Positions 4,861-45,123 of a stretch of 64,000 bases of DNA are shown here, piece by piece (position 1 is the stretch's first letter; the number at the start of each line of letters is the position of its first letter). The notes below the pieces were generated by a model that saw only the letters and a list, made by a program, of their open reading frames with translations, made no database searches and was not told the origin of the DNA. Origin of the DNA: an uncultured Clostridia bacterium (GTDB lineage: Bacteria > Bacillota > Clostridia > Oscillospirales > Oscillospiraceae). The position numbers and the translations under genes were made by a program. Location: assembly GCA_945915065.1 (NCBI GenBank), contig CAMEER010000002.1, positions 41,263 to 105,262 on the forward strand, in the 5' to 3' direction.

Positions 4861-4889
4861 AAAAACCGCCGCGGGAAAACCGCGGCGGT
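4861..4889 (-). terminator. Rho-independent terminator after the sortase gene
   Basis: accgccgcggttttcccgcggcggttttt on the minus strand. Confidence 0.85.
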
Positions 4890-4896
4890 CACCGGA

Positions 4897-5484
4897 TCAT
4901 TCGATTGTTTCGGCCCACCGGCAGAATACGGCCACGCGGGCCTTGCCTCCGGGCGTACAGGTATACAGCACCAGAGGATACTCGCTGCTGAACACGGAAG
5001 AAACATCCTCCGCGTCCTCCGGCTCCAGCCGGCGAATCTCTTCAACGGCATAACGGTATACCGTTCCCTCCATATCCGTGAAGATGACGGAAGCGCCGGG
5101 CGGCAGGCGGTCCAGATAGCCGAAATGGCTCTTGTAGTTGTGGGCGGCAATCACCAGGTCACCGTCTGGAGCGGCGCCGGACTGACGGCAGGGCGCCGCT
5201 TTCAGCCGGTCGTAGCTCCACTGGTCGATGACCGGCAGCTCCAGCGACAGATCGGGGATGGCGATCACACCGGCGTAGTCATAGGTGATCTCCTCAACAG
5301 GCTCCTCCTGTGGCTCCTCCAGGTCGGCGTTGGCAGATATAGCGGAACGCGCGTCCTCCAGCAGGCTCTCGGCTTCCTGCCCGGCACGGCGATCCTCACC
5401 GCGGTTATAGAGGAAAAGGAGCAGTGCTGCAAGTATCAGCACTGCTCCCAGGGAGATCAGGATAACGCCTGATTTTTTAGGCAT
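4897..5484 (-). CDS. sortase
   Basis: VIAAHNYKSHFGYLDRL (His) and LVLYTCTPGGKARVAVFCRW (TxTC...R) catalytic motifs; N-terminal TM. Confidence 0.9.
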   Translation of the reverse strand: MPKKSGVILISLGAVLILAALLLFLYNRGEDRRAGQEAESLLEDARSAISANADLEEPQEEPVEEITYDYAGVIAIPDLSLELPVIDQWSYDRLKAAPCRQSGAAPDGDLVIAAHNYKSHFGYLDRLPPGASVIFTDMEGTVYRYAVEEIRRLEPEDAEDVSSVFSSEYPLVLYTCTPGGKARVAVFCRWAETIE

Positions 5485-6199
5485 TGCCGTGTCTCTTTTT
5501 CCGGAGGATGACCCAGCCGAGAGCGATCAGAACCCCACCGGCCGCCGCCAGTACGGCGATGGGCCAGTTCAGCTGACCGGTCTGGATCAGCGTGCCGGGG
5601 GTGACGGTGGGTTTGCCGCCGCCGGAGGTGTACTCCTCGGCGGTGAACTTCCAGTCCACCTCGCCCAGACGGTTGGCGAAGTCGTTGTCCAGTTCCAGAG
5701 GAACGGTCAATTCCACCGTCAGCGTGGCGGTTTCGCCCTTGCGGAAGGTTCCCAGCAGCTTGGGCTCTGCCAGACCGTCCAGCTCATCGGGAGAGGCCTC
5801 GTAAATCAACTCTGTGCCGTTCCAGACCTTCATGGAGAGCCGGGAGAGGAACTCCGTCATGGTGGCGACGGTCTCGACGGTTTCGGCCACAGGGGGATTC
5901 TTCTTCTCGCCGTGAGCCAACGCCTGTATGTACAGCTTCACATAGCGGCTGCGGGAGGTGGCGGTCTCGTTTTTGAATGTGATGGTCTCGGTCAGCGTGT
6001 CGCCAGGCATCACACCCTTGAACTTGCCGAACAGGTCGGTGGTGGTAAATTCTTTGGTCTTGGGGGCGATGAACAGCTTATTCCTGCCCTTGTAGACGAT
6101 GTCCGCGGTGGGATCGGCGGCAAAGGCGGAGACGGACAGGCTCAGCGCCGTCACCAGCGCCAGCAGGAGGGAAAGCATCGTTTTACATGTCTTTTTCAT
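5477..6199 (-). CDS. TasA/camelysin-like surface protein with LPxTG-like (LIQTG) sorting signal
   Basis: Sec signal peptide ending AFA; C-terminal LIQTGQLNWPIAVLAAAGGVLIALGWVILRKKRHGNA; overlaps the sortase gene by 8 nt. Confidence 0.8.
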   Translation of the reverse strand: MKKTCKTMLSLLLALVTALSLSVSAFAADPTADIVYKGRNKLFIAPKTKEFTTTDLFGKFKGVMPGDTLTETITFKNETATSRSRYVKLYIQALAHGEKKNPPVAETVETVATMTEFLSRLSMKVWNGTELIYEASPDELDGLAEPKLLGTFRKGETATLTVELTVPLELDNDFANRLGEVDWKFTAEEYTSGGGKPTVTPGTLIQTGQLNWPIAVLAAAGGVLIALGWVILRKKRHGNA

Positions 6200-6213
6200 C
6201 GTTCCACCCTCCT

Positions 6214-6777
6214 TCAGTTACCGGACTGACTGGCAAGCGCACTGGGAACAACGCCCCAAGCATCTTTCACAGCCTCTTCAGGCACGCTCTGGATGGCCTC
6301 GGCGATGATCTCGATGACCTGCTTGCCGCCGTCGGCGTCTGTATAGGGGCTGCTTAGCGTAATCGTGTCAATTAAATTAGTTTCCGGCGTTTGACCGGGG
6401 GCCACAGGCCTGGTGTAGTAGTAATAGCCGTCATGCTCTACCCAGTTTGCACCGGGAGCAAATGGCGGGATCGTGGCCGTGCCGCCGATGTGCTGGCCTT
6501 GCTCGTTGACCCGGTAGGTCACCAGCTTGACACGGATGTAGGCGTCGATATCGCCGGTGTTGGTCACATTCACGCTGCGTTTGATGGTGCCGTCGAAGTC
6601 TTCCGTTACTGCACAGGAAACATGGGCGGGATCGAAGGTGTTGATGACGCCGTCCGTCTGAGCGGCGAGCCACGCCAGTGTGCCGCCGGCCACCGCCAGC
6701 AGCAGCACCAGCACGGAGGCCACCAGCACGAGGGAACGTTTCGCGCCGCTCCGGGCGTCTTTCTTTCCAAATTTCAT
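6214..6777 (-). CDS. SipW-dependent-type signal peptide exported protein
   Basis: SLVLVASVLVLLLAVAGGTLAWLAAQTDGVINTFDPAHVSC N-terminus; SD AAAGGAGG. Confidence 0.75.
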   Translation of the reverse strand: MKFGKKDARSGAKRSLVLVASVLVLLLAVAGGTLAWLAAQTDGVINTFDPAHVSCAVTEDFDGTIKRSVNVTNTGDIDAYIRVKLVTYRVNEQGQHIGGTATIPPFAPGANWVEHDGYYYYTRPVAPGQTPETNLIDTITLSSPYTDADGGKQVIEIIAEAIQSVPEEAVKDAWGVVPSALASQSGN

Positions 6778-6795
6778 GTTTCATGGCCTCCTTTC

Positions 6796-9700
6796 TCAAT
6801 GCTGAACGCCATAAACGTTCTCGACCACCGTGCTGAAGCCGTTGAGCCAGTAGGGCTTGCTCAGTCTGTTCGAGCAGGCGATCGTACCGGAAGCATTGGC
6901 CTTGCTCAGTGTCACCGCACTACCGTAACCCGGGGTAAACCTCCAGCTCCAGCCGGTATCTTCCCGAATGGTGTAGACGCCGATGGGCAGTTCGCAGATG
7001 GTCACGCTGCTGTTGCCCACGATGGTAACTTCCGTATATTTCACGCCATCTTTCAGCACATGGAATACATACGGCTCATTTACATTGCCGCCCGTCTTCT
7101 CAATGGTCAGCGTGCAGGTGCTGACATGGAGCCAGAACTTTCCATTTTCCGGAGCACCGCACTGCTTGCCGTCACAGTTCGTGTGCTTAAAGGTAGTCTT
7201 GCCGGTTACATCGGCGGTGCCGATCTTCACGGTCACGTCAACCGCCATATCCTGCTTGGTGTTGATTTTGCCGTCTGCAATCTTGGTGCTGTCCGGCGTG
7301 CAGTCAAGGGCCAGCGTGGGTTTCGCATTCAGCATTTGGACACCTTCGTCATCGTGCTTTTTGGTGCCGTCGGAGTTGACCCAGGTTTCTTCCGCAAGGT
7401 TTCCAGCAAAATCGGCCGGTGCATCGCCGCCGTACCAGACTTCGCTGTCCCGGAAGGTCAATTGCGGCCTGAACACATAGATGGTTCCCTCGCCGGTATC
7501 CGTTGCCTTCTGATCGCCGGAACTGCCCTGCGTTTTTGGGGCAACCGTCACCGTGACGGTATAGGTAATATCCTCCTGAATGTTTTCAAATGAGCCGCCG
7601 TTCCCTGTCGCGGCAGCGGAGATGGAAATGGTGACGTACTCCACCTGCCATGGCTCAAGGCCGTAGGGATGATCGGGGTCATTTGCTTTGCTGAAGTCAA
7701 TGTCGTAACCGCCGATCTTGACGGTCGCGCCCATTTTGACCGCATCCTCGGGAACTGTCTGCGAATAGTAAGCGCCAAGGTATACGTTGGCGTCGGGGAC
7801 GGTCACCGCAGGCTCAGCCAGCGGAACATCTACCACAGGCCGCTGGAAGGTCAGGACGGGCTCGGTGGCAGTGCTGTTTTCATAAACACCGGCGCTTGTG
7901 TTGGTGGCTACGCCGTTGCCGCCGAAGAAGCCGGGACGCGGCGTGACTTTGAAACGGATCACCAGCTTATTGCCGCAGTAGGATACACTCCCGTTTTCGG
8001 TGACTGTGCCCACATAGTTTTCGGCGAAGTCAAAGCCGGTGACGCTGATCTGGTTATCAGTAGTAACGGCACTGGAGGTATCTGTGCTGCCGATGGCAGC
8101 CGTTGCGCCCATGGCATCGGCGTTTTTCGTCCATTCATTCTCCGGGCCGTTGTATTTCCAAGTCTCCAGCGTAATATCGCTTGCCGTTGCGCCTTCGGGC
8201 AGGGTAAAAGCCGGGGCAACGATGTCCTTGATGACCGTCTCTTCGCTCAGCGTGGTGCCGGAACCGCCGGTCTCGATCTGGTCGCTGATCTGCTGGAAGA
8301 TGCTGTTCAGAGAATCCGCGTCGGCAGCAGAGAGGTAATAGCTATCACCACCGGCAGGATAGGTTGCAGTGCCATGTTTAGACGAATCGCTGTAGGATTG
8401 GGCGTTTTTATAGTTGGAGGAAAGCAGGTGCATAAATTTGTTGGGATCTGACACACCGTTTAAACTTACGTCAGGTGTACCATCAGCGCCGGAGAAAATG
8501 CCAACCGTATATACCGTTGCACCATAGCCATCATTTGCAGTAGATTGTTTTGCGATATATCCTTGAGATACAGCATTGTTCGCAACAGTGCTATTAACTG
8601 TCGTACCTGTACCGGGATAGCCATCCGTAAACACAATAATCACCCGGTTTCTGTTCTGTCCATTTGTAATCGGATTATTCTCAAAGATACCGTTTGCCAT
8701 CTCCATGCCTAAATTGGTGAAAGTACCACCGTAGGCATCGAGAGCACCAATAGAGCTCGTAATATTATTTTTTCCGGCCGCTGTATCCATGCTCTGCAGC
8801 GCGTTACCATACTGGCTTTGTGCTGAGGTGCCATATGTGTATTGCGTAGCGCCCACAAATACTTCTGTATTCTCATATTTATTTTGATTGTATTCGCCTC
8901 GGTTCCCGCTGGAAGCGAATCCCACGACAGCAATGCGGTGGTTGATATTATCCTCGGTGGTAGCGATTTCTCCGTCCTTACCGGCAGCCTTTTCCGCAAC
9001 AGCATTGGTAAAGCTGGTAACGGCGTTTTTCAGGGCTTGCAGGCGAGAGGAACAGGCTTCCCTCTTGTACTCGTAAAACTGAGTTCCCTCCTGGTTGTCG
9101 CTCGTTTTGGGTGTAATCTTATTCGCCGCAGTATGATTCGATGACCATTCGCTTGTATACCAACCGGCGCCGCCTTCGCATCCCCAGAAATAGCCGTGTG
9201 TGCCGCTACAATACTGAACGTCGGTATACTTATTACCGTTTTTTATATAATACGTATTATTCGTGTCGACCGAAGTTGTCGCAACATACGTATCATGATA
9301 ATCATTATAGCCATCCATCTCTTTGCCGCAGACGATACAGTAGTCCATCGAGCCGGACTGATCGAGGACGAGGATGATATCCGTGGGAATATCCGTTTTT
9401 TGCTCCGTGATGACCTTTTCGCCGGTGGCGTAGGCCTCCAGCGTGATGGTGTAGCTGCCGTCGCCGTTGGCTGTGGCGGTCTTATTGATGACCATGCCGT
9501 TGTCCGTGGCCGTATCATTGGCACGGGGAGTAGCGGAGAACGTCTTGGCCATGGCTCTGCGCTGAGGGACACCTGTCACAGGCGCAAGGAACGGCGCAAC
9601 GTTGGTGAAATTGACTGTGGGGGCGATAATCTCGCTCTCCACCGGCGCGTCGGACTGCTCAGCCGCGGGAATCGTCGTCTCATCCTCGGCCTTGGGCTCC

Positions 9701-9942
9701 TCAATCTTGGGTTCCTCAATCTTGGGCTCCTCAATCTTGGGCTCCTCAATCTTGGGCTCCTCAATCTTGGGTTCCTCAATCTTGGGCTCCTCGACCGTGG
9801 AATCCTCCGCCTTGGGTTCCGCGGGGGTTTCCACAGTCGTGCCGTTGGCGTCGTCATCCGCCGCGACACTGGCGATCAGGCTGGGGGAAAGCGTGAGAAG
9901 CATCACGCAGCACAGCAGCAGGGCAATAAACCGTTTTTTCAT
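6796..9942 (-). CDS. Large vWA-domain surface protein with EEPKI repeats and C-terminal SpaA-like domain
   Basis: Signal peptide; EEPKI tandem repeats; MIDAS DIILVLDQSGSM; RVIIVFTDGYPG; C-terminal LTIEKTGG...PIGVYTIREDTGWSWRF. Confidence 0.9.
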   Translation of the reverse strand: MKKRFIALLLCCVMLLTLSPSLIASVAADDDANGTTVETPAEPKAEDSTVEEPKIEEPKIEEPKIEEPKIEEPKIEEPKIEEPKAEDETTIPAAEQSDAPVESEIIAPTVNFTNVAPFLAPVTGVPQRRAMAKTFSATPRANDTATDNGMVINKTATANGDGSYTITLEAYATGEKVITEQKTDIPTDIILVLDQSGSMDYCIVCGKEMDGYNDYHDTYVATTSVDTNNTYYIKNGNKYTDVQYCSGTHGYFWGCEGGAGWYTSEWSSNHTAANKITPKTSDNQEGTQFYEYKREACSSRLQALKNAVTSFTNAVAEKAAGKDGEIATTEDNINHRIAVVGFASSGNRGEYNQNKYENTEVFVGATQYTYGTSAQSQYGNALQSMDTAAGKNNITSSIGALDAYGGTFTNLGMEMANGIFENNPITNGQNRNRVIIVFTDGYPGTGTTVNSTVANNAVSQGYIAKQSTANDGYGATVYTVGIFSGADGTPDVSLNGVSDPNKFMHLLSSNYKNAQSYSDSSKHGTATYPAGGDSYYLSAADADSLNSIFQQISDQIETGGSGTTLSEETVIKDIVAPAFTLPEGATASDITLETWKYNGPENEWTKNADAMGATAAIGSTDTSSAVTTDNQISVTGFDFAENYVGTVTENGSVSYCGNKLVIRFKVTPRPGFFGGNGVATNTSAGVYENSTATEPVLTFQRPVVDVPLAEPAVTVPDANVYLGAYYSQTVPEDAVKMGATVKIGGYDIDFSKANDPDHPYGLEPWQVEYVTISISAAATGNGGSFENIQEDITYTVTVTVAPKTQGSSGDQKATDTGEGTIYVFRPQLTFRDSEVWYGGDAPADFAGNLAEETWVNSDGTKKHDDEGVQMLNAKPTLALDCTPDSTKIADGKINTKQDMAVDVTVKIGTADVTGKTTFKHTNCDGKQCGAPENGKFWLHVSTCTLTIEKTGGNVNEPYVFHVLKDGVKYTEVTIVGNSSVTICELPIGVYTIREDTGWSWRFTPGYGSAVTLSKANASGTIACSNRLSKPYWLNGFSTVVENVYGVQH
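9691..9795 (-). repeat. 15-bp tandem repeat (about 7 units) encoding EEPKI
   Basis: cttgggctcctcaat-type units in uninterrupted 15-bp register. Confidence 0.95.
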
Positions 9943-9960
9943 GTGCTATTCCTCCTTTTC

Positions 9961-10563
9961 TCAGCCTGTGATGCCGGACGCCACGCCGGTTCTCGACGTG
10001 GGCCAGCCTGTGGCCGCAGTAACGGTCTTGCCATTGTTGGCCGCCTGAACGGCCTGTGCGTATACCGTCACCTTGGCGGTGGCGTTCTGGTACTCGTTGC
10101 CCATGGTTTTGTTGAAGGTCACGCTGGTGAGGGCAAAGACCGGCGTGTTGCCGGTCAGAGGCGTCTCAAAATAGTACCAGCCGTCATTGCCCTTAATCCA
10201 GCCCTCGGGCATGGTCAGCTCCACCAGATCGAGGTTGGGTGTCTTGCCCTGGGCGTGCTCGTTGCCGTCGGCAAAGGTGATCTTCTTTTCAAACTTCACC
10301 CGTACCCACGCGTCGGCGGAACCCTCGGCCAGCGCGATGCGGGCGTATTTGTCCACCGTCATGCCGGGCATGATGCCGGTCTTGTTGGTGTCGTAGTCCG
10401 TGGTACACGCTTTGTCGGCGTATTCGTGCAGTTCGATATCCACGCCGCCTGTGGTGATGACATTATGGGCGACGGCTTTGGTATTGAAAAACGCCAGCGT
10501 GCCCACGGCGGCAATGGCAACGCAAATCACCAGCACCGACAGCAATAAAAGCTTTCGCTTCAT
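9961..10563 (-). CDS. SipW-dependent-type signal peptide exported protein (TasA/camelysin-like)
   Basis: MKRKLLLLSVLVICVAIAAVGTLAFFNTKAVAHNVITTGGVDIELHEY; MPGMTVDKYARI...AWVRVKF. Confidence 0.85.
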   Translation of the reverse strand: MKRKLLLLSVLVICVAIAAVGTLAFFNTKAVAHNVITTGGVDIELHEYADKACTTDYDTNKTGIMPGMTVDKYARIALAEGSADAWVRVKFEKKITFADGNEHAQGKTPNLDLVELTMPEGWIKGNDGWYYFETPLTGNTPVFALTSVTFNKTMGNEYQNATAKVTVYAQAVQAANNGKTVTAATGWPTSRTGVASGITG

Positions 10564-10710
10564 GTTTCTGCTCCTCTCCTGTTGTTCTTCTTTGTCCCGC
10601 CGGGACGGGCCTTATGGCCGATACAGGCCACAGGAGAGCATCCGAACAGACCGGGTGCTCTCGTGCGGCCTGCACCCCCGAAGGGGTGCAAGGCCGGATA
10701 TGTGGGGGAA

Positions 10711-11499
10711 TTACTGCCAGTTGGTAGCAGTGCCGCCGAAGGGGTTGAACTGCGCGCCGAAAGCAGCGGTGATGGCATCATCAACGGTGTCGAAGCCGTC
10801 AGCCTGAACGGCAACAGCCATAACGGGGCAACTGACAGTGCCATTCAGGATGCTCAGATCGGCATTGGGGAAGCGGGTGTCAATGTAGTCGCCCTGGGCA
10901 TCCATGTCAACATGGCTGTCCAGATACACGCCGGAAACAAACTGCTCGCTGGTATCACCGGCAGCCAGAGTCTGATAGTAGTCGGCGTAGTAGACGTTAT
11001 AAGCAACGCCGCCAATGGTGGTCTCGAAGTAGTTCCACTTGCCATTGTGCTTCCAGTTCCACTGCACGCCCTCGGTGCTGACACCATTCTCATTGCCGAA
11101 GTTGAAGTGCAGGATGTTTGCACCGGCGTTGAAGGTCTCATAGCCATCGTCCAGATCGGAGGGGATGGCAAAATAGGCGCGGACATAGGCATCGGACTTG
11201 CCGGTGTTCTTGATGGTGACGATCTTGTCGATGTAGTTCTCGGCAACGGGCTGACCGAAGGCATCTTTATCGCCCTGGGCAGAGCCGACAATAGGCATCA
11301 GCACCTGCTCCTGCTCAAAATCTTCCAGTTCGGTACCGTCCTCGTTGACCTGCTGCTCGATCAGCTCGATCTTTACACCACCGGCGGTAAAAGTATTGGT
11401 GGCCTCGTCGGTATCGGTGAAGTACGCCAAGGTGGCGCCGCCGACGGCCACGACAGCCAGCGCCACGCACAGGCACAGCGCTACGATTTTCTTCTTCAT
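10711..11499 (-). CDS. SipW-dependent-type signal peptide exported protein (TasA-like)
   Basis: MKKKIVALCLCVALAVVAVGGATLAYFTDTDEATNTFTAGGVKIELIEQ; SD AAAGAGG; start trimmed to ATG. Confidence 0.9.
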   Translation of the reverse strand: MKKKIVALCLCVALAVVAVGGATLAYFTDTDEATNTFTAGGVKIELIEQQVNEDGTELEDFEQEQVLMPIVGSAQGDKDAFGQPVAENYIDKIVTIKNTGKSDAYVRAYFAIPSDLDDGYETFNAGANILHFNFGNENGVSTEGVQWNWKHNGKWNYFETTIGGVAYNVYYADYYQTLAAGDTSEQFVSGVYLDSHVDMDAQGDYIDTRFPNADLSILNGTVSCPVMAVAVQADGFDTVDDAITAAFGAQFNPFGGTATNWQ

Positions 11500-11563
11500 G
11501 TTCAATTCCTCTTTCCTGATAAAGATGTATTTATGTTACTGGGTGTCCAGTTACATACGGAAA

Positions 11564-12199
11564 TCAGTTGAAAGCCTCCCAGGCAGCATCCGCAGTGGCA
11601 AAGCCGTCCGCCTGAATGGCGTAAGCGTTGACGGTGATGGTCATGCCTTCGATAGTGGCCAACTGCGTGTTGGTGATGGTGCTGGGGACGGTGATGCTGT
11701 CAAACAGAGCGTCCAGCGCCACATCAGCGGTGGGAGCCGCAACGGTCTCCTTGTACCAGAACTCATAGGTGCGGGTATTGGCGGTGGTATCCTCGGTGTT
11801 GCCCTTGGCAATCCAGTTGGCGGCGTTATAGCCGGTGAAAATGCTGGTCAGGTCAGCGCCGTTGGGTTTAAAGATGTCGTCCAGTTCAGCGGCCTTGGAG
11901 AAGGTGACTGTCATCTTGATGTAGGAGCTTTCGCTGCCCTTCAGAACGGTGACCATGGGATCCTTGTTATAGGTATGGCCGGGGATCAGCTTGTAGCTGT
12001 TTGCCTTGACACGGTCTGCGTTCGGGACGAGCGTGCCATCAGCATTGACCTGGGCTTCGTCCAGCTTGATCTGCACGTTACCAACGGTAAACGTATTGGT
12101 AACCGTGTCGTGAGAGGTCAGGTATGCCAACGTGGTACCGGCGATGGTCAGGACGGCCAGCGCCACACACAGACATGCCACCAAAAATTTTTTCTTCAT
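11564..12199 (-). CDS. SipW-dependent-type signal peptide exported protein (TasA-like)
   Basis: MKKKFLVACLCVALAVLTIAGTTLAYLTSHDTVTNTFTVGNVQIKLDEAQV. Confidence 0.9.
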   Translation of the reverse strand: MKKKFLVACLCVALAVLTIAGTTLAYLTSHDTVTNTFTVGNVQIKLDEAQVNADGTLVPNADRVKANSYKLIPGHTYNKDPMVTVLKGSESSYIKMTVTFSKAAELDDIFKPNGADLTSIFTGYNAANWIAKGNTEDTTANTRTYEFWYKETVAAPTADVALDALFDSITVPSTITNTQLATIEGMTITVNAYAIQADGFATADAAWEAFN

Positions 12200-12315
12200 G
12201 CTTCCTTTGTCCTTTCATTTCATGTTTTTATGTCGTCGGCGGATGCCGAAGCCATACAAAATCAGGGAAACGGAACGTCACATCCAACCGGTTCCTCAGC
12301 AGAAACGGAGATGGC

Positions 12316-12885
12316 TCACTGCCGGTTTTCGGAGGGTTCCGCAGGGGCCGCCCGCTCGCCCTCCCCGCCGGACTTGCCCTTTTTCTCCGATGCGAAGATG
12401 TCGGGCAGGAACACCAGCAGCAACAGCACCGCCGCCGCGGAAATGGCCACATAAGTGCCGGGGGGATGCTGGATGTAATTGGCCACATAGCCCAGACCGG
12501 GAATGGTGAACACCGGCGTGCCGATGACGTTCTTATAATGGACCAGACTGCCGTCCTCGGCGGTGTTAGCGTCGCCCTTGGTGCGGAAGCGGATCACGGC
12601 GGGGTCTTCCTCGTCCGGGACGATCCCCACAACCCGGTGGGTGGCCACCGTGTCTTCATCCAGCATAAAAGTTATGACGGTGCCGGGGTGAATATCCATG
12701 GTGTCGATCTTCTTCACATAGATCAGGGAACCGGTATGGTAGGCGGGCTCCATGGAGCCGGAGAGTACGGTGAACACCTGCAGCCCCACCAGCCGCGCGC
12801 CGGCCAGCAGCAGCGCCAGCACCACCACCAGCGCCACCAGCACGGTGCTGACGATATTCCATACTTTTTTTAAGGTCGGATTCAT
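12316..12885 (-). CDS. sipW: Signal peptidase I, ER-type (SipW family)
   Basis: VLSGSMEPAYHTGSLIYVKK, VATHRVVGIV (His rather than Lys), RTKGDANTAED; two TM segments. Confidence 0.92.
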   Translation of the reverse strand: MNPTLKKVWNIVSTVLVALVVVLALLLAGARLVGLQVFTVLSGSMEPAYHTGSLIYVKKIDTMDIHPGTVITFMLDEDTVATHRVVGIVPDEEDPAVIRFRTKGDANTAEDGSLVHYKNVIGTPVFTIPGLGYVANYIQHPPGTYVAISAAAVLLLLVFLPDIFASEKKGKSGGEGERAAPAEPSENRQ

Positions 12886-13082
12886 CTTTCTTCTCTCTTT
12901 CCTCGCTGTTCGGGCCGGATATGGGGCTCGATAAAGCTGTCGATCTGCTGCAGGTGATCCCTTGTCAAATTTTGTAAGTGTTCACTACATACAGGCGTAA
13001 TAATAAGCGCTTTCCCCGAAAAAAGCTTACTTTTGTTGAGAGAGATACAAAATGAACCATCGTCTCTATCATGGTTTGCCAT
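12882..13082 (-). CDS. Small ~66-aa ORF, hypothetical, start overlapping sipW by ATGA
   Basis: MANHDRDDGSFCISLNKSKLFSGKALIITPVCSEHLQNLTRDHLQQIDSFIEPHIRPEQRGKREER; preceded by a promoter (13107-13135); SD weak. Confidence 0.5.
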   Translation of the reverse strand: MANHDRDDGSFCISLNKSKLFSGKALIITPVCSEHLQNLTRDHLQQIDSFIEPHIRPEQRGKREER

Positions 13083-13106
13083 TCCGTCCGCTCTCTTATT
13101 GCTCGT

Positions 13107-13135
13107 ATCATAGCATATTTCAAACGATATTGCAA
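13107..13135 (-). promoter_or_regulatory. SigmaA-like promoter of the sipW operon
   Basis: TTGCAA, 17-nt spacer, TATGAT on the minus strand. Confidence 0.7.
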
Positions 13136-13154: not shown

Positions 13155-13196
13155 GCGACACTTCCACAATATCCCAGTTTTGTCGGAAAGTGTCGC
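13155..13196. promoter_or_regulatory. Inverted repeat upstream of the sipW operon promoter
   Basis: GCGACACTT ... AAGTGTCGC (9-bp perfect arms). Confidence 0.5.
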
Positions 13197-28864: not shown

Positions 28865-29551
28865 ATGCGCCTTTTGATCGTGGAGGATGAGGTCCGGTTG
28901 GCGGACACCCTGCGCCAGCTGCTGAACCGGCAGGGATACACCGCAGACGTGTACTATGATGGTGTCAGTGGGCTGGACAATGCCATGACCGGCATCTATG
29001 ATCTGATGGTGCTGGACGTGATGCTGCCCGGTATGAACGGCTTTCAGGTGGTGAAGAAGCTGCGGGAGGCCGGTGTCACCACGCCGGTGCTGATGCTGAC
29101 CGCCAAAAGCGACGTGAGCGACCGCATCCATGGGCTGGACTGCGGCGCGGACTACTATCTTACCAAGCCCTTTGAGCCGGAGGAGCTGCTGGCCTGCGTC
29201 CGCACGCTGCTGCGGCGCAGCGGCGGACAACTGCAGGAGAGCGACACGCTCACCTGGGGCGACCTGTCGCTGGAACGCGCCACCTTCTCGCTATCCTGCG
29301 CCGAGCGTGCGGTGCGGCTCAGCCGCCGGGAGTACGACCTGATGGAGCTGCTGATGCGCAACGGAAATCAGGTGGTCACCAAGGAGCAGATCCTGGTAAA
29401 GGTCTGGGGCTATGACTCACAGGCGGAGGACAACAATGTGGAAGTGTATATCTCCTTCCTCCGCCGGAAGCTGAATCACCTTCACTCCACAGTGAAGATC
29501 AAGACGCTGCGGATGCTGGGTTATTGTCTGACGCAGGAGGTGGAAGCATGA
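28865..29551 (+). CDS. OmpR-family response regulator
   Basis: LLIVEDEVRLADTL, LMVLDVMLPGMNG, YYLTKPFEPEELLA, C-terminal winged helix. Confidence 0.95.
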   Translation: MRLLIVEDEVRLADTLRQLLNRQGYTADVYYDGVSGLDNAMTGIYDLMVLDVMLPGMNGFQVVKKLREAGVTTPVLMLTAKSDVSDRIHGLDCGADYYLTKPFEPEELLACVRTLLRRSGGQLQESDTLTWGDLSLERATFSLSCAERAVRLSRREYDLMELLMRNGNQVVTKEQILVKVWGYDSQAEDNNVEVYISFLRRKLNHLHSTVKIKTLRMLGYCLTQEVEA

Positions 29552-30720
29552 TCCGCAAGCTGCGCTGGAAGATCACCGGTGTCACGCTGCTGGTGGCGTC
29601 CGTGATACTGCTGGCGGTGTTCGCCGGTGTATATTACTTCTCTCAGGCCAATATTGCCGAAAGCTATACCCATCAGCTGCGGCAGGCGGTACAGACCGGT
29701 ACCGCCGATGTCCGGCTGCCCTGCTTTGTGGCGGAGGTACTGCCCAGCGGCACTGTCCGTATCTCTGGCAGTAATTACTACGATCTGGAGGATGGGGATG
29801 CCCTGACACAGCTGGTGGCCGAGGCGCTGTCCGCCCGTGCTGACAGCGGCGTGCTGTCCAAGCAGCATATGCGCTACTACCGGCAGCAGGGACTACTGAG
29901 TGTCCGCATCGCCTTTATGGACAGTACCTTTGAGCAGGCTACGCTGCGGGCGCTGGTGCGCATTTGCCTGCTGATCGGCGGCGGCGCGCTGCTGGTGCTG
30001 CTGGGATTGAGTTGGCTGTTGAGCGGGTTTGTCACCCGTCCCGTGGCCCGAACATGGCAGAATCAGCAGCAGTTCCTCTCCGATGCCAGCCATGAACTGA
30101 AAACGCCCCTGACGGTGATCCTGTCCTCCGCCGATCTGCTAAAGGAAACCGCCCGGGAGGAACAACGGCAGTATGTGGACAATATCTCGGTTGAGTCACG
30201 CCGGATGCGGGCGCTGGTGGAGGATATGCTGACGCTTTCCCGGGCAGAGAGCGGCCGGGCTGTCTCCTTCGTCCCGGTGGATCTCAGTGATCTGGTCACC
30301 GATGCCGCCCTGCGGTTCGAGCCGGTGGCCTTTGAAGCGGGACATCCCCTGCAGTATGACATCCAAAACGATGTGTCCTTGTCCGGCGACCGGCAGCAGC
30401 TGGATCAGCTGCTGGATATCCTGCTGGACAACGCGGTGAAGTATGCCGCCGCCGGCGCACCCATTCGGCTGACACTGGATATTTCCGGTAAAAATGCGGT
30501 GCTGGCGGTGGAAAACCCCGGCGAGCCCATTCCGGCGGACAAGCTGCCCCATCTGTTTGAGCGGTTCTACCGTGTGGATGACGCCCGCTCCGGTACGGAC
30601 GGCTTTGGATTAGGGCTGTCCATCGCCCAGCAGATCGTACAGCGGCACCGCGGGACCATTGCCGCCGCCAGCGATAACGGTGTTACCCGCTTCACCGTAA
30701 CGCTTCCGCTGCGCCATTGA
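29548..30720 (+). CDS. Sensor histidine kinase (HisKA/HATPase_c)
   Basis: DASHELKTPLTVILSSADLL, LLDNAVKYAA, FGLGLSIAQQIVQRH; two TM. Confidence 0.95.
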   Translation: MIRKLRWKITGVTLLVASVILLAVFAGVYYFSQANIAESYTHQLRQAVQTGTADVRLPCFVAEVLPSGTVRISGSNYYDLEDGDALTQLVAEALSARADSGVLSKQHMRYYRQQGLLSVRIAFMDSTFEQATLRALVRICLLIGGGALLVLLGLSWLLSGFVTRPVARTWQNQQQFLSDASHELKTPLTVILSSADLLKETAREEQRQYVDNISVESRRMRALVEDMLTLSRAESGRAVSFVPVDLSDLVTDAALRFEPVAFEAGHPLQYDIQNDVSLSGDRQQLDQLLDILLDNAVKYAAAGAPIRLTLDISGKNAVLAVENPGEPIPADKLPHLFERFYRVDDARSGTDGFGLGLSIAQQIVQRHRGTIAAASDNGVTRFTVTLPLRH

Positions 30721-30747
30721 CACATCTGTAAAATCGAGGTCTTTCTT

Positions 30748-32334
30748 ATGTTTGATATTCTTCTGCGGGGCGGTACCGTCATCGACGGTACCGGCCGCGC
30801 CGCCTTTCCGGCGGACGTCGCCATCGAAAAGGGCCGCATTGCCGCCGTGGGGCATCTGCCTGACGCCGCAGCCCGTCAAACGGTGGACTGCACCGGTTTG
30901 ACGGTAACGCCCGGTTTTATCGACATCCACCGCCACGCCGACGGCGCGGCGTTCCGCCCCGGCTTCGGCGCGTGGGAGCTGTGTCAGGGCCTGACCACCA
31001 TCGTCAACGGCAACTGCGGCCTGTCGGCGGCCCCCTTCGGCCCGACCAACGCCGCCTCCATCCGGGCCTATCTCCAGCCCATCACCGGCACGCTGCCGGC
31101 GGCGCTGGACAGCGGTTCACTGGCGGGCTATTTCCGCTCCCTGCCGCCGCTTCCGGTGAATGTGGGGATGCTGGTGGGGGCAGGTACTCTCCGGGCCGAC
31201 GCGGCAGGCTATGAGCTGACGGAGCTGACGGACGGTCACTTTTCCGCCATCCACCGTGCCATGGAGCAGGCACTGGCCGACGGCGCGCTGGGCGTCAGCC
31301 TTGGTCTGGGCTACGCGCCGGAGTGCTTTTATTCTACATCCGATCTCATTCGCGCCTTACAGCCGGTGGCCGGGACAAAGATCCCTGTCACTGTCCACAT
31401 GCGGCAGGAGGGCGGCGGCGTGGTGGCGTCCGTACAGGAGATGATCACAGTAGCCCGGGCGCTGGGCTGTCCCGTTCACATCAGCCACCTGAAGGCCATG
31501 GGCCGGGACAACTGGGGCAGCAAAATCCCGCAGGTGCTGTCGCTTTTGGAGCAGGCACGAAGCGAGGGCCTTGCGGTGGACTGCGACGTATACCCCTACA
31601 CCGCCGGCTCCACCCAACTGCTGCACATTCTGCCGCCGGATTTTCTCACCGGCGGCATGGAGGCGGTGGTGGCGCGCCTGCGTGACAAGGAGGCCCGAAA
31701 GGAACTGGCGGCGCGCATCGAAAGTGGCTCCGGTTTCGATGATATCGCCAAGCTGGCCGGGTGGGACGGCATCTATCTTACCTCCCTCCACTGCCCGGAG
31801 GATCATCCCTATCAGGGCAAGAATCTGATGGAGATCGCCGCGCTGATGGGACAGGATCCCCTGACCGTCTGCTGTGAACTGCTGGTCCGGGAGCACGGCC
31901 AGATCACCATGATCGACTTCATGGCGTCGGAGGAGGATATCTGCGCTATCCTCCGCTCACCCCTGTCCTGCGTCATCTCCGACGCGACATATCCCACGGA
32001 GGGGCAGCTGCACCCCCGGGTCTGCGGCAATGTGACCCACCTGCTGGAGCATTTTGTCCGAGAAAAGGGCGCGCTGTCGTGGGAGAACGCCGTCCACAAG
32101 CTGACGGAAAAACCGGCAGAGGTGCTGGGCCTGAAAGGAAAAGGACGGCTTGCCGCCGGATACGACGCGGATGTGTGCGTATTTGCGCCGGAGGCTCTCC
32201 ACGAACGGGCCGGCTATACCGACCCCCGGGAGCTGTCGGCCGGCATGACCCATGTGCTGGTCAATGGTGTATTTGCCATCCGTGACGGCGCGCTGACCGG
32301 CGAAACGGGCGGAAAAGTCATAAAAGCGTCATAA
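30748..32334 (+). CDS. N-acyl-D-amino-acid deacylase / D-aminoacylase-like amidohydrolase
   Basis: TVTPGFIDIHRHADGA, GNCGLSAAPFGP, HISHLKAMGRDNWG, ALSWENAVHKLTEKPAEVLGL. Confidence 0.88.
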   Translation: MFDILLRGGTVIDGTGRAAFPADVAIEKGRIAAVGHLPDAAARQTVDCTGLTVTPGFIDIHRHADGAAFRPGFGAWELCQGLTTIVNGNCGLSAAPFGPTNAASIRAYLQPITGTLPAALDSGSLAGYFRSLPPLPVNVGMLVGAGTLRADAAGYELTELTDGHFSAIHRAMEQALADGALGVSLGLGYAPECFYSTSDLIRALQPVAGTKIPVTVHMRQEGGGVVASVQEMITVARALGCPVHISHLKAMGRDNWGSKIPQVLSLLEQARSEGLAVDCDVYPYTAGSTQLLHILPPDFLTGGMEAVVARLRDKEARKELAARIESGSGFDDIAKLAGWDGIYLTSLHCPEDHPYQGKNLMEIAALMGQDPLTVCCELLVREHGQITMIDFMASEEDICAILRSPLSCVISDATYPTEGQLHPRVCGNVTHLLEHFVREKGALSWENAVHKLTEKPAEVLGLKGKGRLAAGYDADVCVFAPEALHERAGYTDPRELSAGMTHVLVNGVFAIRDGALTGETGGKVIKAS

Positions 32335-32361
32335 AAAACCGGCCACATGGCCGGTTTTTTT
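32334..32361. terminator. Bidirectional terminator
   Basis: aaaaaaccggccacatggccggttttttt between convergent genes. Confidence 0.88.
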
Positions 32362-32369
32362 ATGACGCT

Positions 32370-33302
32370 TTACGCTGCTTTCTTCGGCGTCGTGTTGGCG
32401 GCGTAGACGCAAACCAGAATCACCATCACACCGATGATCTGCCAGATCCCGAAGGGCTCCCGCAGCAGTACCACGCCGGCCAGCACGCTGACCACAGTGG
32501 TCACATTGCTGAACAGCGACGTTTCCGACACCGTCAGATGGGCGTTGGCGAAGTTCAGAAGGAAGTAGGCCACCACCGAGGACACCAGCCCCAGATAGAT
32601 CACCGCGCCCCAGAAGCTGCCGCTTTGCATGGCCGGCAGGAAGGTCTCCGCCATGTGTCCCGCCCCCTGAATCAGCGCTGAGGGAATAAAGAACACCATG
32701 CCCACGGTGAACATCACATATGTCACCTCGAAGGGGGTAAACCTCTCTGCCGCCTTGTGGCTGAGGGTGTAGTACACGGCGTCGCAGCCTACCGTCATCA
32801 GCAAAAACACCAGTCCCAGCACGGAGATGCGGGTCTCGCCGCCCATGTAGATAAAGGCCACGCCGATGATGCACAGTACCGCGCACACCACCTGACGGCG
32901 TGTGACCTTTTCGTGCAGCACCAGCACATCCATCAGGATACAGGCAATGGGTACCACCGCGATGATGGTACCGGCCACGGCGGAGGAGGTGTACAAAATA
33001 CCGTAATTCTCGCAGAAGAAGTACAGCACCGGCTGGATCAGACCCAGCAGCACCAAAGATCCGATGGGCTTCCCCTTCAGGGAAAAAGCAAACAGCGGGC
33101 GGCCCCGCAATTTTCCCACCAGCGCGTTGACGCCGATGACCAGTGACATGGCGACAAAGGCCGTGATAAATCGAAACGCCAGCAGCACCGTAGGCTTGGC
33201 CACCTCCAGCGCCAGCTTGGAAAACATGAAGCTCATGCCGAAGATGACCGCGGCCAGCAGCGCGAACACCAGCGACAGGGTACGTTTTTTCTTCTCCTGC
33301 AT
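32370..33302 (-). CDS. DMT superfamily (EamA) transporter
   Basis: Ten TM segments with EamA-type duplicated halves. Confidence 0.92.
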   Translation of the reverse strand: MQEKKKRTLSLVFALLAAVIFGMSFMFSKLALEVAKPTVLLAFRFITAFVAMSLVIGVNALVGKLRGRPLFAFSLKGKPIGSLVLLGLIQPVLYFFCENYGILYTSSAVAGTIIAVVPIACILMDVLVLHEKVTRRQVVCAVLCIIGVAFIYMGGETRISVLGLVFLLMTVGCDAVYYTLSHKAAERFTPFEVTYVMFTVGMVFFIPSALIQGAGHMAETFLPAMQSGSFWGAVIYLGLVSSVVAYFLLNFANAHLTVSETSLFSNVTTVVSVLAGVVLLREPFGIWQIIGVMVILVCVYAANTTPKKAA

Positions 33303-33372
33303 TGTCTTACCTTCTTTCGTTGTGCGGTTTTATGATATCATATTCTGCGCTCGTTGGCAACAGGGCAAAACA

Positions 33373-33396
33373 AAAGCCGGACCAACGGCCGGCTTT
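33373..33396 (-). terminator. Terminator downstream of micro-ORF
   Basis: aaagccgg ccgttggt ccggcttttgtttt on minus. Confidence 0.7.
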
Positions 33397-33467
33397 CGTT
33401 ATATCTGCCATAAATTGGAAACAGAAACAGCCCATATTTTGTCTCGGCGCATGTGTTCTCATGCGTG

Positions 33468-33545
33468 TTACTTGGCGACCCGACTGGCGATACCCACGAT
33501 CAGCAGTACGACGCCAATACCGGCCAGCAGCAGATTCAGTGCCAT
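33468..33545 (-). CDS. Micro-ORF: 25-aa predicted single-TM membrane peptide
   Basis: MALNLLLAGIGVVLLIVGIASRVAK; SD AAAGGAG; promoter TTTACA-17-TATGAT (33586-33614); terminator downstream. Confidence 0.7.
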   Translation of the reverse strand: MALNLLLAGIGVVLLIVGIASRVAK

Positions 33546-33585
33546 ATACCGTCGCTCCTTTCTTCTATGTTCCCGGGTTGACTAT

Positions 33586-33614
33586 ATCATAGCACAGCGG
33601 GTTCCATTTGTAAA
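33586..33614 (-). promoter_or_regulatory. SigmaA-like promoter of the micro-ORF
   Basis: TTTACA, 17-nt spacer, TATGAT. Confidence 0.65.
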
Positions 33615-33697
33615 ACGCACCATTTTCATCAATCTCATGAAAAAATGTTTGAACCCCGCCGCGATTTTTGCTACAATACAGAAACAGGGGGGATAGC

Positions 33698-34591
33698 ATG
33701 AGTCTGGCCAAATATGAGATCCTGCTGAAGGTGGCGGAGTGCGGCAGCTTTACCCGCGCCGCCCAACAGCTGAACTTTACCCAATCCGGCATCAGTCACG
33801 CCGTCAGTTCGCTGGAAACGGAGCTGGGTACCACGCTGGTGGTGCGCAGTCACGGCGGCGTATCCTTGACGGCGGACGGGCGGGCGCTGCTGCCCTATTT
33901 CCGGGAGATGTGTGCCCTGCAGCACCAATTGGAGCAGAAGGCCGCCGACCTGCGGGGGTTGGACACCGGTCTTGTGCGGGTGGCCACATTCACCAGTGTG
34001 TCGGAAAAGTGGATGCCCTATATCCTGAAAAGCTTTCAGGATATGTACCCCAAGATCGAATTTGAGCTGCTGCCCTCCAATTTCAACAGTGAGATCACCG
34101 AGTGGGTCGCCCACGGACAGGCGGACTGCGGTTTTGTCAGCCTGCCTGTGGAAAGCCATCTGGACAGCTGGCTGTTACAGCGGGATCAGTGGAAGGTCAT
34201 TGTCCCCTGCAATCATCCGCTGGCGGGGCGGGATCCCTTCCCGCCGGAGGCGCTGGAGAAGTACCCGGTGATCTTACTGAACGAGGGCGATGACTATGAG
34301 ATCCAAGAGGTGTTCGACACGCTGAACATCCGGCCCAACATTCAGTATACGGTGCAGCAGGATCAGACCATTCTGGCCATGGTGTCCAGCGGCCTCGGCA
34401 TCAGCATCATAGAGGAGCTGATGCTCCAGCGCTGTGTGTATCCGCTGGTGTCCTGCCGGCTGCCCCGGCCCTTTTACCGCAATATCGGCATCTGCGTCAA
34501 AGACAAGAACGCGCTGTCCCTTTCCACCCAACGGTTCATCGATCATGTGCGCCACTGGGTACTGATCAACGGTGGACTGGACAGCCAGTGA
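33698..34591 (+). CDS. LysR family transcriptional regulator
   Basis: ILLKVAECGSFTRAAQQLNFTQSGISHAVSSLETELG HTH. Confidence 0.95.
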   Translation: MSLAKYEILLKVAECGSFTRAAQQLNFTQSGISHAVSSLETELGTTLVVRSHGGVSLTADGRALLPYFREMCALQHQLEQKAADLRGLDTGLVRVATFTSVSEKWMPYILKSFQDMYPKIEFELLPSNFNSEITEWVAHGQADCGFVSLPVESHLDSWLLQRDQWKVIVPCNHPLAGRDPFPPEALEKYPVILLNEGDDYEIQEVFDTLNIRPNIQYTVQQDQTILAMVSSGLGISIIEELMLQRCVYPLVSCRLPRPFYRNIGICVKDKNALSLSTQRFIDHVRHWVLINGGLDSQ

Positions 34592-36704: not shown

Positions 36705-37841
<1,137 letters not shown>

Positions 37842-37893
37842 TTTGCCCATACCAAACTTTCAAGTTTTCCTTCTTTTTTGTTCCAGGAAAAAT

Positions 37894-37917
37894 GCCGCCA
37901 TTCCGGCGGCTTTTTTC
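37894..37917 (+). terminator. Terminator after gap
   Basis: gccgccattccggcggctttttt. Confidence 0.85.
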
Positions 37918-38071
37918 CTATGTCGCTGAATAAAAAAAACAAATTGCTTCCTGTTTTTGTACCAAACAGCGAAAAAGCGGTTTTTCCCGGAAAAACCCTC
38001 TTTCTTTTTCATGGAATGTATGGTACAATAGGTACAAGCGCTATATGCGCGTAGGAAAGGAAACATCCGTC

Positions 38072-38848
38072 ATGGAAAGCAACGCACTTTTGAATGCGAA
38101 TCTGTCGCTGGACAGTGACATTTCTCTGTATGCTCAACTGGTGGGCATCATTAAGCGCAACATCTCCACAGGCGTACTGGCCGTGGGCGACCTGCTGCCC
38201 AGCGAAGCGGAGCTTTGCCGCGCGCTGAACATCAGCCGCAACACCGTCCGCCAGGCCATCGGCGAGCTGGAGGATGAGGGGCTGGTGGTGCGTAAGCGGG
38301 GCCGCGGCACCTTCGTGGCCGACCCCTCCACCAACCGGCGCGGCGTGCGGTATTCCTTCACCACCGAGGTGTCCTCCATGGGCAAGGAACCAAGCAGCAC
38401 GCTGGTGGATTTTGAGATTACCACGCCGCCGGCGATCGTCTGTGAAAAGATGGAGCTGCGGGAGGGAACGCCGGTCTACTGCTTTACCCGTATCCGCAAT
38501 GTGGACGGCGAGCCGCTGATCCTTGAGACCAGCTACTATCCTCAGTATATTTACCCCAATCTGACCCGCGAAATGGTGCAGACCCACAGCTTTTATTCCC
38601 TGCTGTATCATGTGGGCATCACGCCGTTTACCGCCGAGGAAAGCTACGAGGCGGTGACGCTGGACAGCCACAGTGCCGAGCTGCTGGGCGTGGAGCCGGA
38701 CAGCTGTGCCTTCTATCACCAGCGCCGTACCCGCACGGAGGACGGCCGGGTGTATGAGTATACCCGCAGCTATATCCGGGGCGACCGGGTCCGTCTGGAC
38801 GTACATATGCAGAAATCCGGCATCCATTTTACCCGCAGCATCGACTGA
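38072..38848 (+). CDS. GntR family (HutC/UTRA) transcriptional regulator
   Basis: LPSEAELCRALNISRNTVRQAIGELEDEGLVVRKRGRGTFV; UTRA-like C-terminus. Confidence 0.94.
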   Translation: MESNALLNANLSLDSDISLYAQLVGIIKRNISTGVLAVGDLLPSEAELCRALNISRNTVRQAIGELEDEGLVVRKRGRGTFVADPSTNRRGVRYSFTTEVSSMGKEPSSTLVDFEITTPPAIVCEKMELREGTPVYCFTRIRNVDGEPLILETSYYPQYIYPNLTREMVQTHSFYSLLYHVGITPFTAEESYEAVTLDSHSAELLGVEPDSCAFYHQRRTRTEDGRVYEYTRSYIRGDRVRLDVHMQKSGIHFTRSID

Positions 38849-38875
38849 GGGCAGGACATCTGAGCGACATCGAAG

Positions 38876-38902
38876 AAGAGCGGCATGTGCCGCTCTTTTT
38901 TT
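38876..38902 (+). terminator. Terminator after GntR gene
   Basis: agagcggcatgtgccgctcttttttt. Confidence 0.88.
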
Positions 38903-39007
38903 GTGGGAACGTTCTCCCGGCTCGTGCCTGCGGTCAGGCCGCGGCCCGGCAGCGCGGAAAGAGGAATTTCGCGCCATTTGTTCACAAATAATTCAACTCT
39001 GGAACTC

Positions 39008-39036
39008 TTGACATTCTCTTCCTGTGGTGGTACACT
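39008..39036 (+). promoter_or_regulatory. SigmaA promoter of the hrcA operon
   Basis: TTGACA, 17-nt spacer, TACACT, directly upstream of CIRCE. Confidence 0.85.
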
Positions 39037-39039
39037 GAT

Positions 39040-39066
39040 TTAGCACTCAAAGGAATGGAGTGCTAA
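39040..39066 (+). promoter_or_regulatory. CIRCE operator (HrcA binding site)
   Basis: TTAGCACTC-N9-GAGTGCTAA perfect match. Confidence 0.97.
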
Positions 39067-39079
39067 ACGGAGACGTGCT

Positions 39080-40129
39080 ATGGAATTGACAGCGCGAAAA
39101 AAGCAAATATTGAAGATCGTGGTGGAAAGCTATATCGACACCGCCGAGCCTCTTGGTTCCAAGGCCATCGCCCAGCGGATGCCGGAAAAGGTCAGCTCCG
39201 CCACCGTCCGCAACGAACTGGCGGAACTGAGCGACATGGGCTATCTGGAGCAGCCCCATACCAGTGCCGGCCGTATCCCGTCGGCCAAAGGCTACCGGCT
39301 GTACGTCAATGAGCTGATGGAGCGCAAGCCCCTTTCCGACGAGGAGGCCGCCCAGATCAACGACGCCCTGCGGCAGGAGCTGAAAGGCACCGATCAGGTG
39401 ATCGCCAAAACCGGCCAGATGGTGTCCTCCTTTGTGGACTATCCCACCTATGCCGTGGCGGATCATACCGCCGCCGCCACCGTGCGCCGGTTTGAGCTGA
39501 TCGCCGTGGACAGTGGGTCCGTCATCGCCGTGGTGATGCTGTCGGACAGCCGGGTGAAAAGCCAGCTGATGCATCTGAGCCTGCCGCTGGAGGCGGAGAC
39601 GCTTCCGGAGCTCAGCCATTTGCTGAACACCCATTTCACCGGCATCGGTGTCGAGGAGATGAACGTTCATCTGATGAATCTGTCGGATCAGGTCAGCGGA
39701 CAGTGGTTTTTGCTGCTCAATCAGGTGGTGGAGTACGCCGCCGGGCTTTTGAAGGACAGTCAGCAGCATGAGGTGTTCACCAACGGCGCCAGCCAGCTGC
39801 TGAAATTTCCGGAGTTCCGGGATGTCGACAAGGCCCACGACCTGATGCACTTTATGGTGGACAGCAAGGAGCAGCTCCCCGTGCCGGCCGGCGACCAGTC
39901 CATGCAGATCCTCATCGGCCCGGAAAATGTCAACGAGGCCCTGAAAGAAAGCAGCGTGGTGGTGGCCAGCTATGACATCGGCGACGGGATGCGGGGTCTT
40001 GTGGGCGTGGTCGGTCCTACCCGTATGGATTATGCCGCTGTGGCGGCCCGGCTCAGCTACTTTGCCGAGAGTCTGACCCGTATGTTCGGAAAGCACCAGC
40101 TTCCCCCAAAGGAGAATGAGATACCATGA
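39080..40129 (+). CDS. hrcA: Heat-inducible transcriptional repressor HrcA
   Basis: MELTARKKQILKIVVESYIDTAEPLGSKAI; downstream of CIRCE. Confidence 0.97.
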   Translation: MELTARKKQILKIVVESYIDTAEPLGSKAIAQRMPEKVSSATVRNELAELSDMGYLEQPHTSAGRIPSAKGYRLYVNELMERKPLSDEEAAQINDALRQELKGTDQVIAKTGQMVSSFVDYPTYAVADHTAAATVRRFELIAVDSGSVIAVVMLSDSRVKSQLMHLSLPLEAETLPELSHLLNTHFTGIGVEEMNVHLMNLSDQVSGQWFLLLNQVVEYAAGLLKDSQQHEVFTNGASQLLKFPEFRDVDKAHDLMHFMVDSKEQLPVPAGDQSMQILIGPENVNEALKESSVVVASYDIGDGMRGLVGVVGPTRMDYAAVAARLSYFAESLTRMFGKHQLPPKENEIP

Positions 40130-40722: not shown

Positions 40723-40802
40723 CAGAGTATTTTCCGGAACAGTATTCCGAAGCAATAACAGAAAATAATAATGATATGTGAAATATACAGGAGGCAACTA
40801 TT

Positions 40803-42644: not shown

Positions 42645-42652
42645 TCATTTTC

Positions 42653-42690
42653 CCACAAAAAGGGGCAGGGCCACCTGTCCCTTCTTGTGG
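42653..42690 (+). other. Intercistronic hairpin between dnaK and dnaJ
   Basis: ccacaaaaaggggcagg gcca cctgtcccttcttgtgg, no strong T tract. Confidence 0.5.
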
Positions 42691-42709
42691 TGTCTGGGAG
42701 ATAATATTC

Positions 42710-44658: not shown

Positions 44659-44683
44659 CAAACAAAACGAGGAGGAACATCAC

Positions 44684-45121: not shown

Positions 45122-45123
45122 CT

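Follow-up and report, generated by a model that had tools for sequence, protein, structure and literature searches.

An operon for a putative wall-anchored TasA-type fibre in an uncultured Clostridia bacterium

Introduction

Two kinds of surface structure, the TasA-type fibres of the biofilm matrix and the sortase pili that serve as adhesive organelles anchored in the wall, are linked by an operon in the genome of an uncultured Clostridia bacterium (Oscillospiraceae). The operon lies on the minus strand of a 64,000-nucleotide stretch of contig CAMEER010000002.1, here called the window, and combines a SipW signal peptidase and four SipW-type proteins (S1-S4) with a vWA protein (HEAD), a protein bearing a sorting signal (BASE) and a sortase. 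Do these genes encode a single organelle, in which a TasA-type filament is capped by an adhesin and rooted covalently in the wall? A reading made from the sequence alone had favoured such a fibre over a classical sortase pilus, with TasA-type subunits, a tip of the vWA type and attachment of the base by sortase. Here we argue, at a probability that we put at about 0.68, for a wall-anchored fibre of the TasA type, probably assembled by donor-strand exchange, with an adhesin tip and a covalent base.

Results

Gene content of the operon

Eight genes run from 12885 to 4897 in the order, from SipW to sortase, that the sequence-only reading had described. All carry codon signal, at 0.23 to 0.68 bits per codon in-frame versus -0.7 to -1.2 in the other frames. 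The genes and the main intergenic feature are as follows.

12316..12885, minus strand: sipW, ER-type signal peptidase, 189 aa (TIGR02228; SGSMEP, THR, KGD)
11564..12199, minus strand: S1, SipW-type camelysin/TasA homologue by profile, probable shaft subunit, 211 aa (TIGR04088, M73, camelysin profile match)
10711..11505, minus strand: S2, SipW-type camelysin/TasA homologue by profile, probable shaft subunit, 264 aa (TIGR04088, M73)
10564..10710, minus strand: gap between S2 and S3 with a tandem hairpin (element 10621-10692), candidate RNA processing or stability element (covariation)
9961..10563, minus strand: S3, SipW-type camelysin/TasA homologue by profile, probable tip-side adaptor, 200 aa (profile match, AlphaFold2 model)
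6796..9942, minus strand: HEAD, vWA protein of 1048 aa, probable tip adhesin (VWA_2, metal-ion-dependent adhesion site, C-terminal alignment)
6214..6777, minus strand: S4, SipW-type subunit, probable base-side adaptor, 187 aa (TIGR04090 below cut-off, S3 profile match)
5477..6199, minus strand: BASE, camelysin-type domain by profile and LIQTG sorting signal, wall anchor, 240 aa (anchor model, profile match)
4897..5484, minus strand: sortase, 195 aa (PF04203, H115/C176/R183)

For S2, an ATG two codons inside the 264-aa call is the likelier start. Beyond S3, successive genes either overlap, as the sortase and BASE genes do by 8 bp, or are separated by 14-18 nt with ribosome sites.

The sipW product, taken earlier for an ER-type peptidase, scores 101.7 bits against TIGR02228 (cut-off 51.85) and conserves the catalytic motifs SGSMEP, THR and KGD; against the Bacillus SipW equivalog NF046067 it reaches 110.8 bits, below the cut-off of 190. 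TIGR04088 matches S1 (31.9 bits) and S2 (40.5 bits) above its cut-off of 19, and S3 (15.1) and S4 (13.8) below it; the Ala-aromatic junction in the signals of S3 and S4 is identical in kind to that of S1 and S2. Scans of viral contigs returned nothing beyond SipW relatives. A model match to the BasC bindosome (E 0.019) was dismissed as chance level.

The mature subunits resemble camelysin and TasA

Pfam M73 matches S1 at 23.0 bits (cut-off 22.5) and S2 at 30.6 bits, and the BsaA family model TIGR04090 gives 33.1, 26.8 and 38.5 bits for S2, S3 and S4, all under the curated cut-off of 60 (for S4 with an E-value of 1e-9). Since the NCBIfam and Pfam models detect mainly the signal region, we compared mature profiles, with signal peptides removed, by hhalign with column-shuffled controls. 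The reference set comprised a TasA of the tapA-sipW-tasA type, a sipW-linked camelysin and two more camelysin/TasA proteins from the phylum. Against this set the mature S1/S2 profile scored 39.7 (shuffled maximum 13.2, probability 77.7), S3 47.3 (14.5, 91.4) and BASE 47.8 (17.4, 92.5), the BASE alignment spanning 120 columns with the PGD and N-x-(Y/F)-Q motifs included. S4 matches the S3 profile with a probability of 98.8 and is also strong against S1/S2. These profile comparisons show mature S1/S2, S3 and BASE to be homologous to camelysin/TasA, and S4 to be so by way of S1-S3, which bears out the TasA-type character that had been ascribed to the subunits.

For mature S3, an AlphaFold2 model (predicted local distance difference test score 66.8) searched with Foldseek against PDB chains found the TasA fibre 8aur_A at rank 3 (probability 0.97, TM-score 0.41, E 0.016), and type-1 pilus FimA was also among the matches, with non-significant E-values. 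A TasA-like fold of the subunits is supported but not proven by the models. Sequence searches of the PDB with S3, S4 and HEAD gave nothing useful. No sorting signal was found in S1-S4 or HEAD and no YPK-type pilin motif in S1-S4 or BASE, in agreement with the earlier remark that the subunits show none. An HExxH zinc motif is present in no window protein, and camelysin M73 metallopeptidase activity was rejected on this ground. Neither Pfam nor NCBIfam named a TapA in the operon, and no direct comparison with TapA was made.

BASE joins a camelysin-type domain to a variable anchor

The claim of an LIQTG-anchored protein followed by a sortase held up. BASE has an ordinary signal peptide and ends in LIQTG...RKKR (residues 204-236) with a transmembrane stretch and a positive tail, scoring 16.0 bits against the LPXTG_anchor model TIGR01167 (cut-off 15.9); the sortase matches PF04203 (E 1.9e-15) and has H115, C176 and R183. 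Our comparisons refine the claim, in that the base protein is itself, by profile, a camelysin-type domain with an exchangeable anchor. Most BASE relatives bear PxTGD sorting signals, an LIxxGQ signal with an adjoining sortase is found in the window and at loci L164 and L165, and two genes carry SLH domains instead of a sorting signal (Pfam E 3.8e-35 and 1.3e-31, respectively):

L058:8813-10147: SLH-bearing BASE gene
L059:8762-10150: SLH-bearing BASE gene

The camelysin-type domain thus stays constant while the anchor switches among three attachment modes. That BASE is camelysin-type, lies directly after S4 and has its anchor exchanged points to the wall-attached end of the same assembly.

The window sortase exceeds no class-specific cut-off among the sortase class models, and reaches 33.4 bits against the class C model (cut-off 160). 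Together with the sorting signal it matches the final gene pair of classical sortase-pilus clusters at about 20 same-family loci, namely an LPQTGQ(L/W)WP-type base pilin and, after it, a sortase of about 200 aa. In a sortase tree the window, L164 and L165 enzymes form one clade (99/98) nested with the pilus-base sortases in a 100/100 clade, apart from both the class C sortases and those of compact SipW operons. Because of the sorting signal matches and this placement, wall attachment would seem to rely on a module that classical pili also use. Given the split clades, SipW operons would have gained sortases on two or more occasions, unless one sortase took the place of another; the tree fixes neither its root nor a direction of transfer. 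In this incomplete genome no second sortase of the window type was found. That sortase and sorting signal were a one-off graft here is refuted by two like loci in genome G571, of another family.

HEAD has a variable front and a constant end

The 1048-aa protein had been called vWA/SpaA-like, of which the vWA part stands: Pfam detects VWA_2 (E 6.3e-7), and the metal-ion-dependent adhesion site is present (D194-S196-S198, plus TDG at 439). A SpaA-like domain was not detected by Pfam in the window HEAD. The protein has an ordinary signal peptide and an EEPKI repeat stalk close to the N-terminus. Among its relatives the front part varies (vWA, InlB-B type repeats with MucBP, PMP repeats) and the last ~110 residues are constant, with a tail that opens with W-L/F-x-G in most. 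The HEADs of L166 and L168, distant relatives, have a Pfam vWA domain plus a GBS104-like tip-pilin immunoglobulin domain; this domain is a Pfam match in those two only, not in the window HEAD, and the profile alignment of window-type HEADs to them runs beyond the vWA domain. By these alignments HEAD is probably related to the tip pilins of sortase pili. Without an anchor of its own HEAD must be held by another part, and S3 and S4, single-copy and flanking it, are therefore our proposed adaptors for HEAD and BASE.

Residues 195-385 of HEAD form a long Cys-containing insertion within the vWA domain (CIVCGK, CSGTHGYFWGC), between the first adhesion-site motif and the remainder, partly common to L082.

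Gene order is kept across genera and families

Conservation of the neighbourhood had been suggested as a check, and the core order was found to be kept. The arrangement SipW-S1-(usually one or two more S1/S2)-S3-HEAD-S4-BASE occurs at 12 loci in 8 genera and 2 families, counted where contigs are complete; L165 is a thirteenth locus, cut before sipW, and three further incomplete loci agree. S3 and S4 are present in one copy each per core locus, flanking HEAD. The hidden Markov models behind the locus table were built partly from the same loci, so the independent evidence is the gene order and the searches with HEAD or BASE alone. At the thresholds applied, 6 of the 32 genus genomes and 16 of the 301 family genomes held HEAD relatives; 27 of those 301 gave BASE matches, roughly half of them mainly via the sorting signal. 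With the sorting signal removed, the BASE domain alone matched in 16 of 399 phylum genomes (the window's own included). Outside the window these matches fall at 17 loci, 15 of them with SipW-type subunit genes nearby and 10 with an adjacent sortase. L164 and L165, from one genome of another family, show the full window arrangement with an LIDxGQxNWP signal and a sortase, and a compact version, HEAD-SipW-S-BASE-sortase, is found at L166 and L168. Operons of this kind are not confined to this genome: related part lists, sortase included, occur across Bacillota, where such organelles have been little studied.

A conserved hairpin separates S2 from S3

Within the 147-nt gap between S2 and S3 lies a tandem hairpin that lacks a T-run and covaries across genera. 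A very stable hairpin was found in this gap at 10 of 10 loci tested, by stability shuffles that were few and preserved base composition only. Six of the loci could be aligned, and in them 93.7% of cells are paired and 12 of 27 pairs have two-sided changes; pairing falls to 40-51% when the partner is slid by 1-3 columns. A like element follows both long SipW-type genes of the genome's second SipW locus (38.8 and 34.6 bits). In C. cellulolyticum, the ratios of cellulosome subunits are set by intergenic stem-loops in their operon (PMC4423207). The window hairpin, defined by structure and covariation, resembles these cip-cel elements as a strong intergenic stem-loop 3' of what would be the most abundant part, and is a candidate stoichiometry element, acting on RNA processing or stability, that would leave S1 and S2 in excess over the rest.

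Discussion

In the assembly that we propose, SipW would cleave the signal peptides of S1-S4 between Ala and an aromatic residue and thereby release an N-terminal strand. A thin shaft would form from mature S1 and S2, the likeliest mode of polymerisation being donor-strand exchange, which has been demonstrated for TasA (PMC9674648, PMC10151520). S3 and S4 may act as adaptors at the two fibre ends, next to HEAD and BASE, respectively. HEAD would dock on the fibre via its constant C-terminal domain and tail and cap it as a vWA tip adhesin, and BASE would nucleate or end the fibre, with its LIQTG signal linked to peptidoglycan by the operon sortase. The stable hairpin 3' of S2 would shield the upstream transcript, so that shaft subunits exceed tip, base and sortase. 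The combination of TasA subunits, vWA tip and sortase base put forward in the sequence-only reading is favoured by homology, by joint conservation and by the lack of sorting signals and pilin motifs in subunits and tip; the assembly itself is what we infer from them.

The same genes could also serve other ends. S1-S4 might form free, secreted matrix filaments of the BsaA/TasA kind, and the presence of BASE and sortase in the operon would then be coincidental, the two making up a wall protein of their own. C. perfringens offers a precedent, since its BsaA polymers are mostly extracellular and the srtB gene beside sipW is dispensable for them (PMC7395162), and most same-family operons lack an adjacent sortase; the dispensable srtB and the missing sortases also weigh against a wall-anchored fibre. 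We nevertheless consider free filaments unlikely, as BASE is itself camelysin-type by profile, follows directly after S4 in the core order, and keeps its domain while its anchor is exchanged among three modes. Somewhat less probable still is that secreted camelysin-like proteins, a secreted vWA adhesin and an anchored protein are regulated together yet act separately at the surface, with no common assembly: heads and anchors do differ between genomes, as this would predict, but the order is fixed and single-copy S3 and S4 flank HEAD at 12 loci in 2 families, and HEAD has a conserved tail and no anchor of its own. We give very little credence to a classical sortase-polymerised pilus of the SpaA type with overlooked pilin motifs. 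The tip-pilin domain in HEAD relatives would suit it, as would the sortase and BASE sorting signal common to classical pilus base modules; against it, S1-S4 and HEAD lack a sorting signal, S1-S4 and BASE lack a YPK-type motif, the sortase falls outside the class C clade (33 bits versus a cut-off of 160), and the class C-type sortases of this genome sit elsewhere with pilus genes of their own.

Further points count against the wall-anchored TasA-type fibre. The case for it is computational. S4 matches camelysins weakly when compared directly (score 26.3 versus a shuffled maximum of 15.3, probability 12.4%) and so is tied to them only indirectly, through S1-S3. Structure prediction, proposed earlier as a check, ranked a TasA fibre third for S3, at a non-significant E-value, and gave none for S1, whose full-length model is a generic and uninformative beta-sandwich with TasA absent from the top 50 structure matches; no Foldseek match of either model lies below E 0.001. 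The second residue of LIQTG is not that of LPXTG, and the anchor model is matched just at its cut-off. An RNA model of the hairpin, searched in 201 genomes, also matches unrelated strong hairpins, and the outside matches inspected adjoin genes that are not of SipW type; the model is therefore not specific.

Among known systems, B. subtilis tapA-sipW-tasA (PMC9674648, PMC10151520) is alike in its SipW, SipW-type signals, camelysin/TasA subunits and same-operon partner protein, whereas the window operon has four subunits, a vWA tip protein, a dedicated sortase and a BASE that joins a camelysin-type domain to a wall sorting signal, and a TapA was not recognised in it. The B. cereus TasA/CalY/CapP system (PMC13082335) shares SipW, two TasA-type subunits in mixed filaments and an accessory surface protein; it differs in being explicitly sortase-independent, and CapP, which has a repeat tail, belongs to DUF4047 instead of being a camelysin domain with a sorting signal. 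In C. perfringens sipW-bsaABCRSD (PMC7395162), SipW-dependent BsaA-type proteins likewise occur in an anaerobe with srtB nearby, and a short transcript plus read-through is reported; no vWA tip or anchored base is described there, and two-component genes are present. Classical SpaA-type pili share the tip-base-sortase logic, the GBS104-like tip domain seen in HEAD relatives, and a base module that the window sortase and sorting signal resemble in the same family. Unlike theirs, the window shaft subunits have SipW signals without a sorting signal or class C sortase, and HEAD has no sorting signal.

In the open-access literature around sortase, camelysin, TasA and SipW, to which most subscription papers and preprints do not belong, we came across no account of a vWA tip and a sortase-anchored base together with TasA-type subunits. 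We file the operon with the TasA/camelysin kind, not with the classical sortase pilus, as a combination not found described. Whether it represents a separate, phylum-wide class of Gram-positive pilus, with a non-covalent TasA-type shaft built by donor-strand exchange, a tip adhesin related to sortase-pilus tip pilins, a camelysin-type base whose anchor is swappable (sortase signals, dedicated sortases or SLH domains) and a hairpin-set shaft-to-tip ratio, is in our judgement a matter of even odds. The operon provides a testable parts list for the capping and covalent rooting of TasA-type filaments.

Leader, flanks and other loci

With leader and terminator, the operon spans about 13100 to 4864 on the minus strand. 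Its outer features are:

13107..13135, minus strand: promoter-like site TTGCAA-17-TATGAT, extended -10 (TG before -10); consensus match only
12886..13100, minus strand: probable untranslated AT-rich leader, holding most of a 66-aa open reading frame (codon score, no homologue)
4864..4890, minus strand: terminator-like hairpin with T-run, z -5.5 (folding score), where a strong terminator had been noted

The 66-aa open reading frame (13082-12882) had been counted as the first member of the operon. It was rejected as a gene on its codon score of -0.52 bits per codon, the level of non-coding frames, and on the lack of a homologue in any relative locus; its GC content is 0.43 versus 0.54-0.61 in the eight genes. 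Because it has no in-frame codon signal and no relative carries it, the region is probably leader.

The upstream flank gene encodes a PAP2-like protein (sequence read by eye) and those downstream DUF4358 and DHHW proteins (Pfam); none of these was seen beside the operon in mapped relatives. Just upstream of the promoter-like site, at window positions 13155-13196, lies a near-perfect inverted repeat, GCGACACTTTCC...GGAAGTGTCGC, present as a single copy in the genome and possibly an operator or the end of the upstream gene.

The second SipW locus of the same genome (L022/L141, G000:C8 about 28950-34400) codes for a 259-aa SipW homologue and a pair of long SipW-type proteins, together with one S3-like and one BASE-like protein, the latter bearing an SPKTGD signal. 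Beside it (L141, G000:C8 about 37391-47353) are classical sortase-pilus genes, with LPxTG-type proteins of 2193 and 536 aa and class C-like sortases; an LPQTGQ base protein with a terminal sortase was not seen among them. At L121-L140, Signal peptidase I-like genes regularly lie 5' of the classical pilus clusters of the family (by eye).

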